From assembly GCF_000314995.1 (NCBI RefSeq), contig NZ_BAEO01000055.1:186001-250000 (forward strand): a stretch of DNA of 64,000 nt, given 5' to 3'. This DNA is from Paraglaciecola arctica BSs20135 (GTDB lineage: Bacteria; Pseudomonadota; Gammaproteobacteria; Enterobacterales; Alteromonadaceae). Under the pieces are notes generated by a model that did no database searches, had not been told where the DNA came from, and worked only from the letters and a program-made list of their open reading frames with translations. This document shows positions 26,113 through 32,400 of the stretch, in pieces. Position 1 is the first letter of the stretch, and each line of letters begins with the position of its first letter. Position numbers and translations under genes: made by a program.

Positions 26113-26403
26113 TTAAAATTGTTGGCTGATATCCATATTTTTGTGAAGGACGCGAACAATGATGATGCCTTTTAAGGTTTCTGTGTAAAACAGGATATGA
26201 CTGGCATAGGGGAAACTATATAATTCCCTCGCTAATTCAGGCCTATTTTTGCCAATACTCGGTTGGTCTGCTAAACGATTTGATACTAGTTTTAATCCGT
26301 CTACATAAGTGCGGGCTTGAGGTTTTCCCCACTCAGCCACAGTGTATTTAACAATTTCAGTAAGATCGTTTAAAGCTTCAGGAGTAAAAGTGAAATTAGG
26401 CAT
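26113..26403 (-). CDS. ParE/RelE-family toxin
   Basis: The 96-residue protein has the ParE pattern: FTPEALNDLTEIVKYTVAEWG, YVDGLKLVSNRLADQPSIGKNRPEL, SFPYASHILFYTE and IIIVRVLHKNMD. Family members poison gyrase (ParE) or cleave mRNA (RelE); the RVLH..MD ending is typical of ParE. It overlaps the antitoxin gene by 8 bp and is downstream of it. It looks complete. Confidence 0.88.
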   Translation of the reverse strand: MPNFTFTPEALNDLTEIVKYTVAEWGKPQARTYVDGLKLVSNRLADQPSIGKNRPELARELYSFPYASHILFYTETLKGIIIVRVLHKNMDISQQF

Positions 26404-26659
26404 TGTCTATAGTGTTTAGTAGTTGATTTATCGCTTCTTCGCCATCAATAACTCGCCCTGCTTTTAAGCTATTTAAACCTTTTTCTATCTCCATTTTTAA
26501 AGCTTGCTGTTTTATAGCTTGCAGGTCTTGAAACTCTTTGGCAGACATCACTACCGCAACAGGTTTGTCGTGACGAGTGATCCATACAGGTGCTTGTTGC
26601 ACTTTTAGCACAACATCACTGAATGACTTTTTAGCATCAGTGGAATTGATTGAATCCAT
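26396..26659 (-). CDS. Phd/YefM-type antitoxin
   Basis: From the ATG at 26659 (purine-rich site upstream) the product has 87 residues. MDSINSTDAKKSFSDVVLKVQQAPVWITRHDKPVAVVMSA is the Phd/YefM DNA-binding fold, followed by a toxin-wrapping tail. It pairs with the overlapping ParE gene and should repress the operon through the palindrome at 26689-26718. Upstream in-frame starts cross that palindrome and are rejected. Confidence 0.88.
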   Translation of the reverse strand: MDSINSTDAKKSFSDVVLKVQQAPVWITRHDKPVAVVMSAKEFQDLQAIKQQALKMEIEKGLNSLKAGRVIDGEEAINQLLNTIDNA

Positions 26660-26688
26660 AGGTTGCTCTTCTCTGATTAAAGTGAGTG

Positions 26689-26718
26689 TTTTGTACATAA
26701 TAGTCATTATATACAAAA
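26689..26718. promoter_or_regulatory. Palindromic operator of the phd/parE operon
   Basis: TTTTGTA-C-ATAAT is followed by AGTC and by ATTAT-A-TACAAAA, a near-perfect 13-base dyad about 30 bp upstream of the antitoxin start. This is the expected position for antitoxin autorepression. Confidence 0.7.
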
Positions 26719-26886
26719 TGTACCAATTTTATGTAGAGGGTCATTATATGGAAATGCTGGGGTAGGTGGTTAGGAGAGAGTTTTAGTCGAATATTTTTCG
26801 ACATTTACAACATTTGTACAAAAATGACAGTTTGTTGCTATTAACATATATGATGAAGTACGTGGTTTTTTATACAGGAGAATGTT

Positions 26887-27129
26887 ATGCGTTTATCTAT
26901 CGACATTACCCCAGAACAACTTCAACATTTAAAAGCAGCGGCCGCACTACAAGGCCAATCCATCAAAAATTATGTGTTAGAGCGTGCCTTACCGAAGGGC
27001 AATGAACAAGAAGCACTGAAAAAATTAGAAACATTTCTAGGGCCGCGTGTGGACAAAGCCATAGCTGGTAAAATTTCGACTAGCTCCGTTGACTCTATAT
27101 TTGAAGAAGAATTAGCGAAAGCCAAGTAA
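26887..27129 (+). CDS. Ribbon-helix-helix antitoxin (ParD-like), partner of a broken toxin
   Basis: The 80-residue protein begins MRLSIDITPEQLQHLKAAAALQGQSIKNYVLERAL, a ribbon-helix-helix DNA-binding domain. An acidic C-terminal segment (SSVDSIFEEELAKAK) would bind the toxin. AGGAG precedes the ATG at six bases. The gene is intact, but the toxin gene 5 bp downstream carries a nonsense mutation. It could still act as a repressor or neutralise related toxins. Confidence 0.85.
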   Translation: MRLSIDITPEQLQHLKAAAALQGQSIKNYVLERALPKGNEQEALKKLETFLGPRVDKAIAGKISTSSVDSIFEEELAKAK

Positions 27130-27134
27130 CCATC

Positions 27135-27434
27135 ATGTGCCAATACAAGATTACGGAAGATGCAGAGCAAGACTTACGTGAGATCGCACGTTATACCCTC
27201 AGTAAATTTGGGATCAAATAATTAGAAATATACCGACAAGCGCTAAACATCACCTTTAATGCTATTGGTAAAATCGAGGTTGTTCAGCATCAATTTTCAA
27301 AGAACCGACCGGATATATTAGTCACTAAATGCCAACATCATTATGTTTTCTATATCGTTATTGGCGTGATTCATGAAGTGAGAGACATAGTGGTTTTACT
27401 TGCTTCTCGATTGACTGGCGAAGGTGAACGGTAG
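27135..27434 (+). pseudogene. ParE-type toxin inactivated by an in-frame stop codon
   Basis: The frame from ATG 27135 reads MCQYKITEDAEQDLREIARY...FGIK, stops at TAA 27219-27221 and continues in the same frame LEIYRQALNITFNAIGKIEV...FYIVIGVIHEVRDIVVLLASRL to 27434. This is a full-length ParE homologue of 100 codons with one nonsense change, most simply CAA to TAA. No frameshift is needed. Confidence 0.88.
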
Positions 27435-27440
27435 CTTGTT

Positions 27441-27468
27441 GCCAATAATTAACATGCGTGTCCTGCTA
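27441..27468 (+). repeat. Right half of the boundary repeat, copy 2
   Basis: GCCAATAATTAACATGCGTG plus TCCTG matches the right half of the repeat at 28601-28632. It starts 7 bp after the stop of the broken toxin gene. Confidence 0.65.
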
Positions 27469-27510
27469 ATTTTTTAAAATGGATGAATAACAGTTAATCA
27501 AAGTAATTAA

Positions 27511-27807
27511 TTATAAGCCTTCCAAAGCTTCACGAACGACATTGGGACGTTTAGATATAACTGTTAGGTAGGCCTTTGCAGCACCTTCAGGATTACGTTT
27601 TCCTGCTTCCCATTTTTTTAGGCTGTGTACCGACAAACCATAAGCTTCTGCAAAATCAACTTGCGATAGTCCTGTTTGTGCACGAATTGACTTAACATCA
27701 ATTATTGTATTGATAATTTTATTGGCTCGTCCTTTTTTAGGATCTCCGCGCAAAAATTCTAAGGCTTCGTTCGCCCCTGATAAGATATCATTTCCAGCTT
27801 TTGTCAT
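27511..27807 (-). CDS. Helix-turn-helix antitoxin (HigA/NadS-like)
   Basis: The 98-residue protein has a C-terminal XRE-type HTH: VKSIRAQTGLSQVDFAEAYGLSVHSLKKWEAGKRNP. It is encoded directly after its toxin (4-bp ATGA overlap), the higBA order. It should bind toxin and operator. Confidence 0.88.
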   Translation of the reverse strand: MTKAGNDILSGANEALEFLRGDPKKGRANKIINTIIDVKSIRAQTGLSQVDFAEAYGLSVHSLKKWEAGKRNPEGAAKAYLTVISKRPNVVREALEGL

Positions 27808-28136
27808 GGTTGCATCTCCTTCTTAATCGATTGCACAATTTTGTAAAGCGCATTTTTATCTGCATCACTGATATTTGTACGTTCATTTTTCCCAAAAACG
27901 GTAAATAGAAGAATAGGATTATTCTTAGTGTAGTAATAATAAATAACGCGAAATGAACCACTTTTACCTTGCCCTTCTCGTGCTATCCGAATCTTTCGAA
28001 CCCTACCAGTTTGAGCGATAATCACACCACTTTCTGGTGCCGCAGCAATAGCATCAATCAACTCTGCCCGTTCTTTTGATGTTATGAGCTTTTCGGCTTT
28101 GCGGATAAACTGTAATGTTTCAATAACCGTTATCAT
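27804..28136 (-). CDS. RelE/HigB-family toxin
   Basis: The 110-residue protein carries ELIDAIAAAPESGVIIAQTGRVRKIRIAREGQ, SGSFRVIYYYYTKNNPILLFTVFGKNERTNIS and a C-terminal helix, the RelE/HigB fold of ribosome-dependent mRNA interferases. The gene is intact and precedes its HTH antitoxin. It is of the same subfamily as the broken toxin at 28685-28991. Confidence 0.88.
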   Translation of the reverse strand: MITVIETLQFIRKAEKLITSKERAELIDAIAAAPESGVIIAQTGRVRKIRIAREGQGKSGSFRVIYYYYTKNNPILLFTVFGKNERTNISDADKNALYKIVQSIKKEMQP

Positions 28137-28195
28137 TTCCAGGTGGTACCCATTGGGCGCTTTGTGTGCAATGAAAAGTTTTCTATTGGCATTGC

Positions 28196-28632
28196 TGACT
28201 AAGAGTTTTGAATGGCTTCGCCATCAAAGCATGCGCTAGCGCTTACTGACATCCTTGTCAGTTTTTGACTCGAATCCCTTCGAGCCAGTTACTCTTTTTA
28301 TGAAATACTTCCTTGTATTTCACCCAGCGGGCCGCACTGAAGTGCGTTCTAAATTTATCCATTAAATTTTTGGTCAACAGCAAAAAAAGAGTAACCAGAA
28401 AAACGCCGCTCGAGGGCAATGCTCTTCATCCGGTTATTTTGCGAATTCAGCAGGTCGCGATGATCCGCTCCAGGAGGTACATCACTTAATTGGCTATCCC
28501 TGCCAATTACCCCACTGAATTCACAAAATAACCGGCGAGCCTTGAGTCGAGGGTAAATCAAAAGCATCGGCGTTGCCTACTAAGAGTTTTGAATGGCTTC
28601 GCCAATAATTAACATGTGTGTCCTGATAGCGT
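28196..28632 (+). repeat. Multi-hairpin repeat element, copy I
   Basis: This is a string of small stem-loops with conserved order: AATGGC-TTC-GCCAT; GCGC-TA-GCGC; ACTGAC-ATCCTT-GTCAGT; CTCGAA-TCCC-TTCGAG; GTTACTCTTTTT pairing with AAAAAGAGTAAC; a long inverted repeat (28430-28450 with 28515-28535, 20 of 21 pairs) around an inner hairpin TAATTGGC/GCCAATTA; and GGCGTTGCC. The element is flanked by direct copies of CTAAGAGTTTTGAATGGCTTCGCCA and ends in the boundary repeat. Copies II and III share the scaffold with different arms. The short ORFs inside it look spurious. Confidence 0.8.
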
Positions 28633-28684
28633 ACCTACCAATCGACGCATTTGAATTAATACGGCATTGCCGTATACTTGTTGT

Positions 28685-28991
28685 ATGATTTTTATAGAAA
28701 CTAGTATATTCACAAAAATCTTACCCAATTACCCTACTGATGATGATTACCGAGGGTTGCAACCGTATCTTTTACAAAAACCTGATGCTGGTGATATTGT
28801 CCGTGGCTCTGGTGGAGTAAGGAAAGTTCGCTGAGCTGTTTCGAGGAAAAAGTGGTGGGATACGCGCAATCTATTATTGGAAGAAATCAGAACATGAAAT
28901 TTGGATGCTAACGATGTATGGCAAATCTGAAAGGGCGACAATTTCTGGTAATGTCTTAAAACAAATAGTGGAGGCAATTGATCATGAATAA
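28685..28991 (+). pseudogene. HigB-type toxin destroyed by a stop codon and a frameshift
   Basis: From ATG 28685 the frame reads MIFIETSIFTKILPNYPTDD...GSGGVRKVR, then TGA at 28832-28834 where relatives have Trp. After a frame change near 28844-28850 it continues GKSGGIRAIYYWKKSEHEIWMLTMYGKSERATIS...VEAIDHE, ending at 28991. Together these form a complete HigB homologue, so two lesions have killed the toxin. Its end overlaps the intact antitoxin start by 8 bp. Confidence 0.85.
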
Positions 28992-29271
28992 TCGTGATAT
29001 TGGATTAGAAATTATTGAAGGGTTAGATGAGATTAAACAATTCAAAAGTGGCAATGCCCAACTAAAAACAACTAAATTGTCTGAACCATCTAAACCTAAA
29101 ATAATCAGAGCAAAATTAAAATTATCGCAGTCAGCATTTGCTGGTTTGCTTGGTGTAAGCATGCGGACATTACAGGACTGGGAGCAAGGGCGTAGAAGCC
29201 CTCAAGGCCCAGCATTAGCGCTGCTTCGTATTGCAGAACAGCATCCAGAAGTTTTTGCTGATTTACACTAA
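28984..29271 (+). CDS. Helix-turn-helix antitoxin (HigA/NadS-like), partner of a broken toxin
   Basis: From the ATG at 28984 (GGAGG upstream) the product has 95 residues. It ends with an XRE-type HTH, IIRAKLKLSQSAFAGLLGVSMRTLQDWEQGRRSP, and a helical tail. It is intact although its toxin gene is dead. It is related in fold to the antitoxin at 27511-27807 but has a different N-terminal part. Confidence 0.87.
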   Translation: MNNRDIGLEIIEGLDEIKQFKSGNAQLKTTKLSEPSKPKIIRAKLKLSQSAFAGLLGVSMRTLQDWEQGRRSPQGPALALLRIAEQHPEVFADLH

Positions 29272-29320
29272 AACATGTAATAAATCCGTCAAGAACTTGC
29301 TGTGCCTTACGCATATGGAA

Positions 29321-29690
29321 AAGTTAACGTAAGTGTCTTGATAGCGTTCAGACTAAGAGTTTTAAATGGCTTTGCCATCAAAGCATGCGCTGGCGCTTAC
29401 TGGCCTCCTTGCCAGTTTTTGACTCGAATCCCTTCGAGCCAGTCACTCTTTTTCAACAGCAAAAAAGAGTAACCAGAAAATGCCGCTCGCTACCAAAGTT
29501 CTTAACCGCACAAAAAGACTTATTTTAGGGTCGCTACAAATGTGTCCATCCAACTTTCGCTCAAATGGCATCCTTGCCATTTGCCCCTAAAATAAGCCTT
29601 TTTGTGCTGAAACTTTAAATGCGGGAGCCACCTAAGAAAAAAGCATCGGCCTTGCCGACTAAGAATTTTGGATGGCTTCGCCATTAAAGA
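29321..29690 (+). repeat. Multi-hairpin repeat element, copy II, with a degenerate boundary repeat
   Basis: It begins with a degenerate boundary repeat (AAGTTAACGTAAGTGTCTTGATAGCG). The same scaffold as copy I follows: AATGGCTTTGCCAT, GCGCTGGCGC, ACTGGC-CTCCTT-GCCAGT, CTCGAA/TTCGAG and CACTCTTTTT pairing with AAAAGAGT. The long arms at 29508-29530 and 29584-29607 (22 of 23 paired) differ completely from those of copy I and enclose AAATGGC-ATCCTT-GCCATTT. It closes with GGCCTTGCC and CTAAGAATTTTGGATGGCTTCGCCA. No credible gene lies within. Confidence 0.8.
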
Positions 29691-29814
29691 ACTATCAAAG
29701 ATGTCTTCGTAAATACCAACAAGCATAATTTATCGGGTGAAAATATTTGTGTGCTTCATCAGGTTGTAACACACTCGCGAAGAGCACAGACATTAACTTA
29801 AGGGTATGTATTTG

Positions 29815-30780
29815 ATGCAAACAAAGAAACAACATTATGTTCCACGCTTTATATTGAAAAATTTCTCCTTTGGAAAAGGGAAGAAAATCCATGTATTTGA
29901 CAAGCTAAATAATCGCACTTTTGTATCATCTATAATTGATGCTGGCTCTGAAAATTATTTTTATGTTGACCCTGTTGAATATGAAACAAACACAGAGGAT
30001 AAACTTTGCGAACTTGAAACGCAGACCGCGCCAATCATAAGTAAAATAGTTCAGGAACAATCTATAAATAATGTTTCTGACTTCGAGCTCGGTATTTTAT
30101 CTCTCTTTATTTCTGTTCAGAAACTCAGGACAAACAACCAAAAAGAACTGATCTTTCAGATGAACCAATCTATCTCCAATTGGTGTAGGAAAAATGGACG
30201 AGATCCAAACACCGATATTGAAAACTTCCAGGAGATTACGAAAGATGAAGCAAGCGTTCTTGCTACAGGGAATTTGCGTTCCTTGGCAGGAGACTTTGCG
30301 CCAATTCTTCTTGAAAAAGTTTGGATTTTAAACAAAGCACCTAAAGGACAATCCTTTTTAACATCTGACCACCCAATTGCTTTGCACAACCATCGCCCTA
30401 GACCGGGTAGAGGGAATTTAGGGATCAAATTAGAGGGTATTGAAATACAATTCCCAATATCATCTAAATTATCTCTGACTTTGTTTTGTCCCATCTTGTT
30501 TAAAGAAATGGTGAAAAAAGTAAATCAACATAAAGCAACTTGTTTGTTAATGAACAAGAAGCCTTTAGACACATCAGAAATTGAACTTTTGATTAGTGAG
30601 GTAAAAGACAGGAAAACAAGACAAATGACTCCTGAAAACGTTGAATTTAATAACTCTTTGCAAGTACAGCAATCTAGTCGTTTTGTATATTCTCCAACAA
30701 AGAACTTTACGATTGTTGAAGAAATGATAACTGAGTTTCCCGACTTACAAAGTCCACCAACAATCGAGAAAAATTTCTAG
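29815..30780 (+). CDS. DUF4238 domain protein
   Basis: From the ATG at 29815, ten bases after AAGGG, the product has 321 residues starting MQTKKQHYVPRFILKNFSFG, the hallmark of DUF4238. Further family segments are KIHVFDKLNNRTF, ENYFYVDP, and FLTSDHPIALHN in the second half. The biochemical function is unknown. Such genes are scattered in genomic islands and sometimes near defence genes. An ATG at 29806 is too close to the ribosome site. It stands alone between a hairpin repeat and the HEPN-like gene. Confidence 0.85.
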   Translation: MQTKKQHYVPRFILKNFSFGKGKKIHVFDKLNNRTFVSSIIDAGSENYFYVDPVEYETNTEDKLCELETQTAPIISKIVQEQSINNVSDFELGILSLFISVQKLRTNNQKELIFQMNQSISNWCRKNGRDPNTDIENFQEITKDEASVLATGNLRSLAGDFAPILLEKVWILNKAPKGQSFLTSDHPIALHNHRPRPGRGNLGIKLEGIEIQFPISSKLSLTLFCPILFKEMVKKVNQHKATCLLMNKKPLDTSEIELLISEVKDRKTRQMTPENVEFNNSLQVQQSSRFVYSPTKNFTIVEEMITEFPDLQSPPTIEKNF

Positions 30781-30933
30781 TGTTAATGTGACATCACAGT
30801 CATTTTAAGAGCACGTCATGAAATACCTAAAAAGTTAGTTTTAGGTAAATTAGCTTTAATAGAGTACCGCAGCAGCGATTGTAGACAGAGAAAGACTTTT
30901 CCCAATTAATGTAAGAAAGTAGCAACAGAAGGT

Positions 30934-31848
30934 TCAAGATTTAAATAAATCAAAAGAAGACCATCCCATACGATGCCATGCCTCTTTTGAAAACTTGTTA
31001 TTGTAACCAGATAGTGAGCAAATTAATTTTTCATTTAAACGGCCTAAACATCTTCCAAACCTTCTATTGCTTCGTCCCATTCCTAAAATCGTATCAGCCC
31101 ACATGGCCTCATGAAACAACTCGTTGCGAGCTTTACAAATTTCTTCAACTAGGTTTTTTTCATAGGCGATACCGTAGTAATCACACAAAAACAAGATGCG
31201 CTTTGCATGCCCTATACGTCTAGGGGGGGGGGGATGTAGATGACTATAAACATTAAAAATCGCATCCAATATCATGTATTGCAAAGAAAAGCTCTCCCAT
31301 TCAGATTTTATACTGCATGCTTTCGTATGAAGGTAGATAATATTAATTACCTTTGTCTGTAAGCTTGGATCGAGAGTTGTCCACCAGCTATATAAATGCT
31401 CTATAAAATGAATAGCAGTGTCATTTCTAATTAATAGGCTATTATTTTTCTTGATTGGGACTCGCCCCACGAACCTCCATTCTTTGAATTGTAACGTAGT
31501 CCCGAAAAGAAACCCTAAGGCATGGATTATTAAGGCTTCATCCGAAACCTTGGGATCGTTTAAAGAAACTGGCTTATTTACTACGACAAAGTGTGATGGT
31601 GGTAAATGAAAAACCGTTGCGGGCTTTTCAGAATTGGAGACTTTTTTTCGAGTTTTTTCATTGTCTGGATCAAACTCATATGTTGCTACTAACGGAGGGT
31701 AGAAATATCCATCAATATTTGTACGAGTATTTACCCATTCTGAAGTTTCTTTGAAATCAGGTTTAACTGATATAATAACACCATCAAAAGAACCTTCAAA
31801 TTCATTCGGTAAAAACCCAAATTCATGCTTTGTAGTTGGGATTAACAT
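30934..31848 (-). CDS. Hypothetical protein with a C-terminal HEPN-like motif and a poly-G tract
   Basis: The product has 304 residues from the ATG at 31848; a GTG at 31866 would add six. The N-terminal half (FGFLPNEFEGSFDGVIISVKPDF) is not recognised but looks beta-rich. The C-terminal half is helical and contains CKARNELFHEAMW, fitting the HEPN ribonuclease pattern R-N-x3-H. The general layout recalls ApeA/abortive-infection HEPN proteins, but I cannot assign the family. A run of eleven G at 31223-31233 encodes HPPPPR just before the HEPN part. Any slip there would remove the motif, so expression could be phase-variable. No obvious ribosome site was seen. Function is unproven. Confidence 0.6.
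   Translation of the reverse strand: MLIPTTKHEFGFLPNEFEGSFDGVIISVKPDFKETSEWVNTRTNIDGYFYPPLVATYEFDPDNEKTRKKVSNSEKPATVFHLPPSHFVVVNKPVSLNDPKVSDEALIIHALGFLFGTTLQFKEWRFVGRVPIKKNNSLLIRNDTAIHFIEHLYSWWTTLDPSLQTKVINIIYLHTKACSIKSEWESFSLQYMILDAIFNVYSHLHPPPPRRIGHAKRILFLCDYYGIAYEKNLVEEICKARNELFHEAMWADTILGMGRSNRRFGRCLGRLNEKLICSLSGYNNKFSKEAWHRMGWSSFDLFKS
31223..31233. repeat. G11 homopolymer within a coding region
   Basis: Eleven consecutive G on the plus strand encode consecutive prolines on the minus strand, inside the HEPN-like gene. Tracts of this length are prone to slipped-strand changes, and also to sequencing error. Confidence 0.8.
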
Positions 31849-32024
31849 TTGGAATAAGAAAAACACTATAAAAACTATTTAATGCAATCATGTTTTCATA
31901 AATTCCCTTCGTATTAAAGAATCTTTTTACCCGCAGAAATTCAATTATTTGTATTAATGGAATAGTTGCAAATAACTGGGGAAAGATATCACTTTATGTA
32001 ATTTAATTCCGGAGCAACAAACAT

Positions 32025-32056
32025 CAGCAATAAACAGGACCAGCAATAAACAGGAC
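32025..32056. repeat. Two tandem copies of a 16-bp repeat
   Basis: CAGCAATAAACAGGAC occurs twice without a gap, followed by AGCC. The same words often mark dispersed intergenic repeats; nothing else in the window matches fully. Confidence 0.7.
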
Positions 32057-32097
32057 AGCCTTGATAACTCTTCTAAAATAGGTTGCCTTAGATTCTA

Positions 32098-32400
32098 ATC
32101 GGCGAAGCCGATAATCTTGTCTTTTGATTTCCCCTCGACTGTATGTTCGCCAATTATCTGTTCACTTTTGTGGGGCAATCGCCATGGAAGGCGATTGAGT
32201 AATGCCTCGTCGGGAACGAATCATTACGACCTACAAAAGTGAACAGATATTTGGATGAAGAACATATTTGGAGAGCGGCTTCTTTTTGGTTACTTTTTCT
32301 TAGCTGTAGAAGAAAAAGTAACTGGCTCGAAGGGATTCGAGTCAAAAACCGCATGGAGGCGGGTAAGCGCAGCGCATAGTCTTTGTGCACAAAGTGCATG
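32098..32400 (-). repeat. Multi-hairpin repeat element, copy III (inverted)
   Basis: Read on the minus strand it shows the scaffold of copies I and II: GCGCTGCGC, then CCGC-CTCCAT-GCGG, TTTTTGACTCGAATCCCTTC and GTTACTTTTTC pairing with AAAAAGTAAC. Its own long arms (32155-32171 with 32233-32249, 17 of 17 paired) enclose CAATCGCC/GGCGATTG, and it ends with a GGCTTCGCC hairpin. The flanking CTAAGAG direct repeats are lost or unrecognisable here. Confidence 0.75.

Follow-up and report, generated by a model that had tools for sequence, protein, structure and literature searches.

What kind of molecule is specified by an intergenic repeat whose stems change while their pairing is kept? The question is raised by a 64,000-nt stretch of the 5.96-Mb genome of Paraglaciecola arctica BSs20135 (contig 18, positions 186001 to 250000; referred to here as the window), for which a preliminary description had reported three copies of a multi-hairpin repeat. 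All three are present, copies 1 and 2 in direct and copy 3 in inverted orientation (Table 1). Copies 1 and 2 have a 103-nt block in common (93% identity), and a 37-nt stretch of the inverted copy 3 is 95 to 97% complementary to both. The family is much larger than these three copies. With copy 1 as the query, BLAST found 58 pieces in this genome, and a covariance model, R1, gave 47 matches (150 of 2576 candidates scored); the units are multi-hairpin and 250 to 450 nt in size. Judging from sequence and predicted structure, we propose that the family probably represents dispersed structured RNA elements that carry predicted sites for the regulator CsrA on one strand, the GGA strand.

The informative feature is a conserved loop that was absent from the preliminary description and lies on the complementary strand. 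The covarying hairpins carry an ANGGAN loop, usually closed by C-G, and for copies 1 and 2 this loop is found on the strand opposite to the one first considered. The stems named at that time (ACTGAC, ACTGGC, CCGC, TAATTGGC, AAATGGC, and CAATCGCC) were recovered in the window copies by a hairpin scan of the window, and all of them close an ANGGAN loop, TAATTGGC with an extra base. One hairpin, TGGCTCGA-AGGGAT-TCGAGTCA, is identical in all three copies. Over the whole window and both strands, there are eight ANGGAN hairpins with at least five Watson-Crick pairs, and all eight are in the three copies, each of which has three or four candidate CsrA sites. The GGA counts on the two strands are 9/1 in copy 1, 5/3 in copy 2, and 7/1 in copy 3.

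The same picture was obtained with 118 R1 matches of the genus, which come from loci fetched because they match R1 and which include weak matches. Here, GGA was located in the loop of 269 of 603 predicted hairpins on the GGA strand versus 22 of 608 on the opposite (TCC) strand; the corresponding values were 9 to 16 of 286 to 310 in five shuffled sets and 8/589 and 5/595 in control windows. R1 matches lean toward GGA stems because two GGA hairpins are part of the R1 structure; the arm-tip hairpins and the window-wide scan are independent of R1. When hexamers flanked by at least five Watson-Crick pairs were counted with no folding program, ANGGAN was flanked in this way in 166 of 396 cases and other hexamers in 53 of 42,221 (copies not de-duplicated). 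In total, 128 distinct stem-and-loop combinations carry the motif. The closing pair in the genus is C-G in 92 of 137 and A-T in 34, many of the latter being the one conserved hairpin, and five-nucleotide AGGAN loops are present on 10 distinct C-G-closed stems.

Which strand folds is indicated by the wobble pairs. Stems read on the GGA strand contain 60 G-U versus 6 A-C wobbles; among distinct stems, the ratio is 27 to 2 for the 67 with C-G, U-G, or C-A as the closing pair and 20 to 0 for the 65 with C-G, although the stems are related by descent and therefore are not independent events. Control hairpins are symmetric in this respect (G-U to A-C, 309 to 318 in triloop hairpins and 471 to 424 in other hexaloops of the same regions). 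Because the wobbles in the stems are G-U and not A-C there, the GGA strand is the folded strand, that is, the minus strand for copies 1 and 2 and the plus strand for copy 3.

The suspicion, raised by the three copies, that selection acts on a folded single strand is supported by this asymmetry and by covariation. None of 100 dinucleotide shuffles of copy 1 folded as well as the copy itself, whether RNA was modeled on either strand (z = -6.2 and -6.5) or DNA on the plus strand (z = -6.8). R1 was built from 18 core copies (alignment A1), picked for compactness from 43 extracted. In these, 93.0% of the cells pair, compared to 31 to 48% after a shift of the partners by one to three columns. A change of both partners is seen in 40 cells, which none of 500 shuffles equaled; two of five measures, the number of pairs with a double change and that of further pair types, were not above the shuffles. 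In the alignment of all 118 copies fitted to the R1 structure (A2), 92.6% of the cells pair and 590 carry changes in both partners, a number not reached in any of 500 shuffles; a double change is present in 24 of 25 pairs, which 2 of 500 shuffles matched.

The strongest covariation test is the comparison of the elements upstream of rpsF. An R1 match is located close upstream of this gene in 8 of 22 Paraglaciecola genomes and in none of the other 14, and the elements of four genomes from four species (this genome, G001, G017, and G021) could be aligned (A3). At this site, 95.6% of the cells pair, a figure that benefits from the use of one of the four sequences as the source of the structure. 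Changes in both partners are seen in 21 of the 85 pairs, a count that none of 500 shuffles reached; slid versions gave at most 3. The G017 copy was found by eye and confirmed by R1 with 68.6 bits; it is a divergent subtype in the 3' hairpins. The flank that could be identified as shared is the one on the rpsF side. More distant elements are present at the same site in G003, G004, and G014, and G015 has a weak match.

We read the family as RNA elements with CsrA sites because the hairpins match the published form of such sites and because csrA and a csrB-like locus are present in the genome. In the papers cited here by PubMed Central (PMC) number, the CsrA consensus from systematic evolution of ligands by exponential enrichment (SELEX) is RUACARGGAUGU, and of 55 RNAs, 51 have GGA in the loop of a hairpin and 44 a six-nucleotide loop, with AC and GU paired (PMC7652899); RsmE targets have C-G-closed A(N)GGAX loops of five to eight nucleotides (PMC4005645). 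Like the sponge small RNAs (sRNAs) of the CsrB/Rsm type, the repeats have multiple GGA hairpin loops of the form A(N)GGAX closed by C-G. There is one csrA match in this genome (protein start MLILTRRVGETLMVG), and its product retains L4, T5, R6, Q29, and R44, as counted on the sequence; L4 and R44 are presumably RNA-contact positions. T5, R6, and Q29 are RNA contacts of a CsrA-type protein (PMC4005645). A separate csrB-like locus (G000:C33:26987-27319; L082, L214) contains 21 GGA in 333 nt, with a repeated unit just upstream. The Rfam model RF00018 scored 28.9 bits on this locus, below the gathering score of 71 bits, and R1 gave no match there; conversely, RF00018 matches in the genome are confined to contig 33, i.e., to loci other than the repeat copies. 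Furthermore, csrA was found in 48 of 48 genomes checked (46 of the 82 genomes of the order with R1 matches and two of the genus) and in 25 of 27 class hits, the two misses being 81% and 73% complete; every checked genome with an R1 match and a completeness of at least 90% has csrA.

In our model, the repeat RNA would be made up of consecutive hairpins. A long arm that evolves fast and bears one or two hairpins would be followed by a T-rich hairpin, in some cases with additional modules inside, and then by two further hairpins. By eye, a hairpin with a short T tract was noticed where the GGA strand of the element has its 3' end. Many of the hairpins would present an A(N)GGAN loop, usually C-G-closed, in the form bound by CsrA/RsmA. 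A copy transcribed alone or within a longer mRNA would offer several CsrA sites and may capture CsrA, either as a sponge or as a landing site in cis. Transcription, CsrA binding, and sponge action are steps that we infer, as is the mode of copy multiplication.

Several observations weigh against CsrA-binding RNA elements. Promoter-like sites between 28100 and 32700 are at chance level (14 found versus 12.7 expected). In copies 1 and 2, the 3'-end hairpin of the GGA strand is terminator-like on the other strand. Most SELEX hairpins have at most four contiguous pairs (PMC7652899), and many repeat stems are longer than that. In the window, no match to any Rfam family attained the gathering score; the five matches at a permissive threshold all fell below it, and none belonged to the Csr/Rsm type. 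Outside the genus, ANGGAN hairpins with at least four Watson-Crick pairs are missing in 6 of 31 copies from the order's other genera and in 16 of 27 from other orders, and the G-U to A-C wobbles (4 to 2 and 2 to 2) are too few to inform. Finally, co-occurrence of csrA and the repeats is weak evidence because csrA is common anyway (313 of 369 genomes of the class).

A name for the element, which the preliminary description could not give, was found neither in Rfam nor in the open-licence PMC literature searched; this literature yielded no description of the repeat family or of repeats with CsrA sites, and the available portions of PMC2267715 and PMC9788540 contain nothing on the family. CsrB/CsrC and RsmX/Y/Z, the sponges of CsrA/RsmA, likewise bear several C-G-closed A(N)GGAN loops on one RNA, but the repeat family differs from them in being dispersed (47 R1 matches), in its fast-evolving long arms, and in the lack of an Rfam match. 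By their general description, BOX, ERIC, and NEMIS, which are modular or stem-loop intergenic repeats, are also similar. Repetitive extragenic palindromes (REPs) and bacterial interspersed mosaic elements (BIMEs) with their REP-associated tyrosine transposases (RAYTs) are intergenic, of high copy number, and made of hairpins as well; however, REPs are palindromes of 20 to 40 bp (PMC3733652), whereas the family unit is 250 to 450 nt, multi-hairpin, and not regularly beside Y1_Tnp genes. The Csr sRNAs Pf1 to Pf3 of Pseudoalteromonas fuliginea are GGA-rich RNAs of a marine gammaproteobacterium too, with 25, 21, and 9 GGA motifs and promoters tested for Pf2 and Pf3; unlike the family, they are described as three individual intergenic sRNAs and not as a dispersed repeat, and Csr sponge sRNAs are reported as a small number of dedicated genes in each genome, with two to four copies in various species (PMC11882849).

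Could the GGA strand act as folded single-stranded DNA, e.g., as the substrate of some HUH-type transposase with the loops as its recognition marks? High copy number and dispersal would fit, and so would the DNA fold of copy 1, which is also far better than its shuffles. In addition, short hairpin arrays with GNA triloops are seen on the GGA strand in the 3' flanks of copies (e.g., L164, L166, and L140). The GNA triloop is unusually stable in DNA. In these flanks, GNA loops account for 58 of the 208 triloop hairpins, compared to 14 of 210 for the opposite strand and 33/661 and 27/661 for controls, and 64 distinct C-G-closed GNA triloop hairpins have G-U and A-C wobbles at 34 to 9. However, a link to a transposase, which had been considered from the start, was not borne out: an R1 match is present in just one of the five Y1_Tnp regions of the genome, and the repeats at the ends of that Y1_Tnp gene are of a different kind (GGGGTCAGAG), so that mobilization by a RAYT is unsupported. 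A clean empty site was not found at the two places examined. At the rpsF site, no clean junction was visible by eye between the genomes with and those without an R1 match, and the L035 site was matched in two other genomes that are syntenic on one side only. Copy 1 had no match in plasmid or phage records, and a copy from another genus had none in plasmid records. The C-G-closed ANGGAN loop is the form reported for CsrA; this motif favors RNA over single-stranded DNA without proving it, and we regard the DNA alternative as unlikely. At L087 (L031 8607-8714), the Y1_Tnp (RAYT-like) gene with its GGGGTCAGAG-type repeats abuts a copy without the 5' part and appears to have been inserted into it; a further Y1-like open reading frame (ORF) was seen by eye beside a weak copy at L047.

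Near-perfect arms of 20 bp can also persist through templated correction between the arms, without functional selection. If this were all, the repeats would have no function at the RNA level: correction between inverted repeats would keep the stems perfect, and the loops would be inherited from a common ancestor. The long arms, which evolve fast and yet stay nearly perfect, are what templated correction would yield. This explanation is nevertheless quite improbable, since the same loop sits on the 128 different stem-and-loop combinations and recurs in other genera and orders with its C-G closing pair, and since the wobbles are strand-asymmetric while those of control hairpins are symmetric.

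That the repeats are terminators or 3'-end elements of neighboring genes acting on the TCC strand is very unlikely: the 3'-end hairpin of copies 1 and 2 does precede a T tract on that strand, and in 78 of 111 copies the ORF next to the 3' end of the GGA strand is oriented toward the element (mechanical ORFs of at least 90 amino acids; 7 of 118 copies lack a neighbor on one side; binomial P = 2e-5, the copies not being independent), but on the TCC strand the G-U wobbles of the GGA strand would become A-C mismatches, and a terminator needs neither a conserved loop nor a 250-nt architecture. There are 6 terminator-like sites in the region versus 3.5 expected. Given the ORF orientation and the terminator-like hairpin, the family may therefore act as a terminator for neighboring genes, too.

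Elements of this kind, which we read as probable CsrA-binding RNA elements, are not restricted to P. arctica. With copy 1, BLAST gave matches in 20 of 40 sampled genomes, this genome included, and 14 of 14 of the named stretches with the core pattern of the family were from Paraglaciecola. R1 matches are present in 22 of 22 Paraglaciecola genomes (3 to 47 each), with weaker scores in 82 of 394 genomes and 24 of 114 genera of the order sample, and at a stricter limit in 28 of 369 genomes of the class sample. The best score drops from 133 bits in the genus to 55 for the order and 66 for the class sample. Eight loci aligned from outside the genus have chiefly the T-rich hairpin in common. Among copies from the order's other genera (31 of 34 matches, the three weakest left out), 25 of 31 have an ANGGAN hairpin with at least four Watson-Crick pairs on the model strand, compared to 4 of 31 for the complementary strand; C-G closes all 25 distinct hairpins that pass the five-pair test. 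In other orders (27 of 33 matches, one per locus), the values are 11 of 27 versus 0 of 27, with C-G closing in 14 of 17. A related architecture, GGA hairpins followed by the T-rich hairpin, is seen in several of the order's families and, outside the order, in some of the copies; the motif is frequent but not obligatory. Copies without it include L185 and L186 (family f8), which have the T-rich hairpin without GGA hairpins and, upstream, inverted repeats of the AAGTGCGGT type that we take to resemble the uptake sequences of Pasteurellaceae.

Table 1. Features of the three repeat copies and neighboring genes (window coordinates)
Feature	Position	Strand	Remark
Copy 1, read on GGA strand	28225..28575	-	Limits approximate
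R1 core match of copy 1	28225-28411	-	L062 6225-6411
Hairpin ACTGAC-AAGGAT-GTCAGT, copy 1	28245..28262	-	Same stem and T tract on + strand, terminator-like
Hairpin TGGCTCGA-AGGGAT-TCGAGTCA, copy 1	28266..28287	-	
Hairpin GTGAAATAC-AAGGAA-GTATTTCAT, copy 1	28300..28323	-	Optional module inside T-rich hairpin
Hairpin TAATTGGC-AGGGATA-GCCAATTA, copy 1	28487..28509	-	Long-arm tip; loop one base longer
Long variable arm, copy 1	28430..28535 (28430-28450/28515-28535)	-	21-nt arms, 95% complementary
Copy 2, read on GGA strand	29375..29660	-	Limits approximate
R1 core match of copy 2	29379-29488	-	
Hairpin ACTGGC-AAGGAG-GCCAGT, copy 2	29399..29416	-	Same stem and T tract on + strand, terminator-like
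Hairpin TGGCTCGA-AGGGAT-TCGAGTCA, copy 2	29420..29441	-	
Hairpin CAAATGGC-AAGGAT-GCCATTTG, copy 2	29562..29583	-	Arm tip
Long variable arm, copy 2	29508..29607 (29508-29530/29585-29607)	-	23-nt arms, 96% complementary
Copy 3, read on GGA strand	32098..32383	+	Counterparts upstream of rpsF in other Paraglaciecola species
R1 core match of copy 3	32273-32383	+	
Hairpin CAATCGCC-ATGGAA-GGCGATTG, copy 3	32176..32197	+	Arm tip
Hairpin TGGCTCGA-AGGGAT-TCGAGTCA, copy 3	32323..32344	+	
Hairpin CCGC-ATGGAG-GCGG, copy 3	32349..32362	+	
Long variable arm, copy 3	32150..32254 (32150-32174/32230-32254)	+	25-nt arms, 92% complementary
ParE	26113-26403		
Phd/YefM	26396-26716		
ParD	26887-27129		
RelE with helix-turn-helix (HTH) partner	27511-28136		
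HTH/MqsA-like gene	28978-29271		

The long, near-perfect outer arms seen at first were confirmed in all three copies (Table 1). Their sequences had been called unrelated in each copy, which does not hold everywhere: the arm region of copy 2 recurs in L033, L034, L040, L048, and L049 with 82 to 97% identity, and the arm of copy 3 is recognizable, with compensated changes, at the same site in three other species. The copies as first delimited are real, but their outer limits included a flanking direct repeat (family D2; 28179-28232, 28560-28613, and 29639-29692).

Other small repeats accompany the elements. A second short repeat resembling TTAACATGNGTGTCCTGNTAAT flanks them at 27440-27470, 28600-28641, 29319-29356, and 32025-32056, and similar units are found in tandem near other copies (both partly by eye). 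Within some hairpin loops of L064, L067, L073, and L043, a small GC-rich, GCGGACGCCGCGCGGGA-like insert was noticed by eye and looks as if nested repeats enter at GGA. The genes at 26113-29271 form a cluster of the toxin-antitoxin type, a setting in which integron attC sites, marked by an integrase gene and paired core boxes, were considered.

In sum, both parents of the proposed element, interspersed hairpin repeats and CsrA sponge RNAs, are known kinds, and their combination is new within the literature searched. If transcribed, the repeats would be a repeat-borne decoy for the global regulator CsrA, and a dispersed repeat with the hairpins of a Csr sponge would couple the repeat load of the genome to this regulator. 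It would also provide a function open to testing for the multi-hairpin intergenic repeats that recur in Gammaproteobacteria. The copy upstream of rpsF, with its compensated pairs in four species, is a clean place for a test. More tentatively, mobile decoy repeats could be widespread in Gammaproteobacteria, as multiplying elements that encode strings of CsrA-binding hairpins and whose copy number and transcription would set the level of free regulator.

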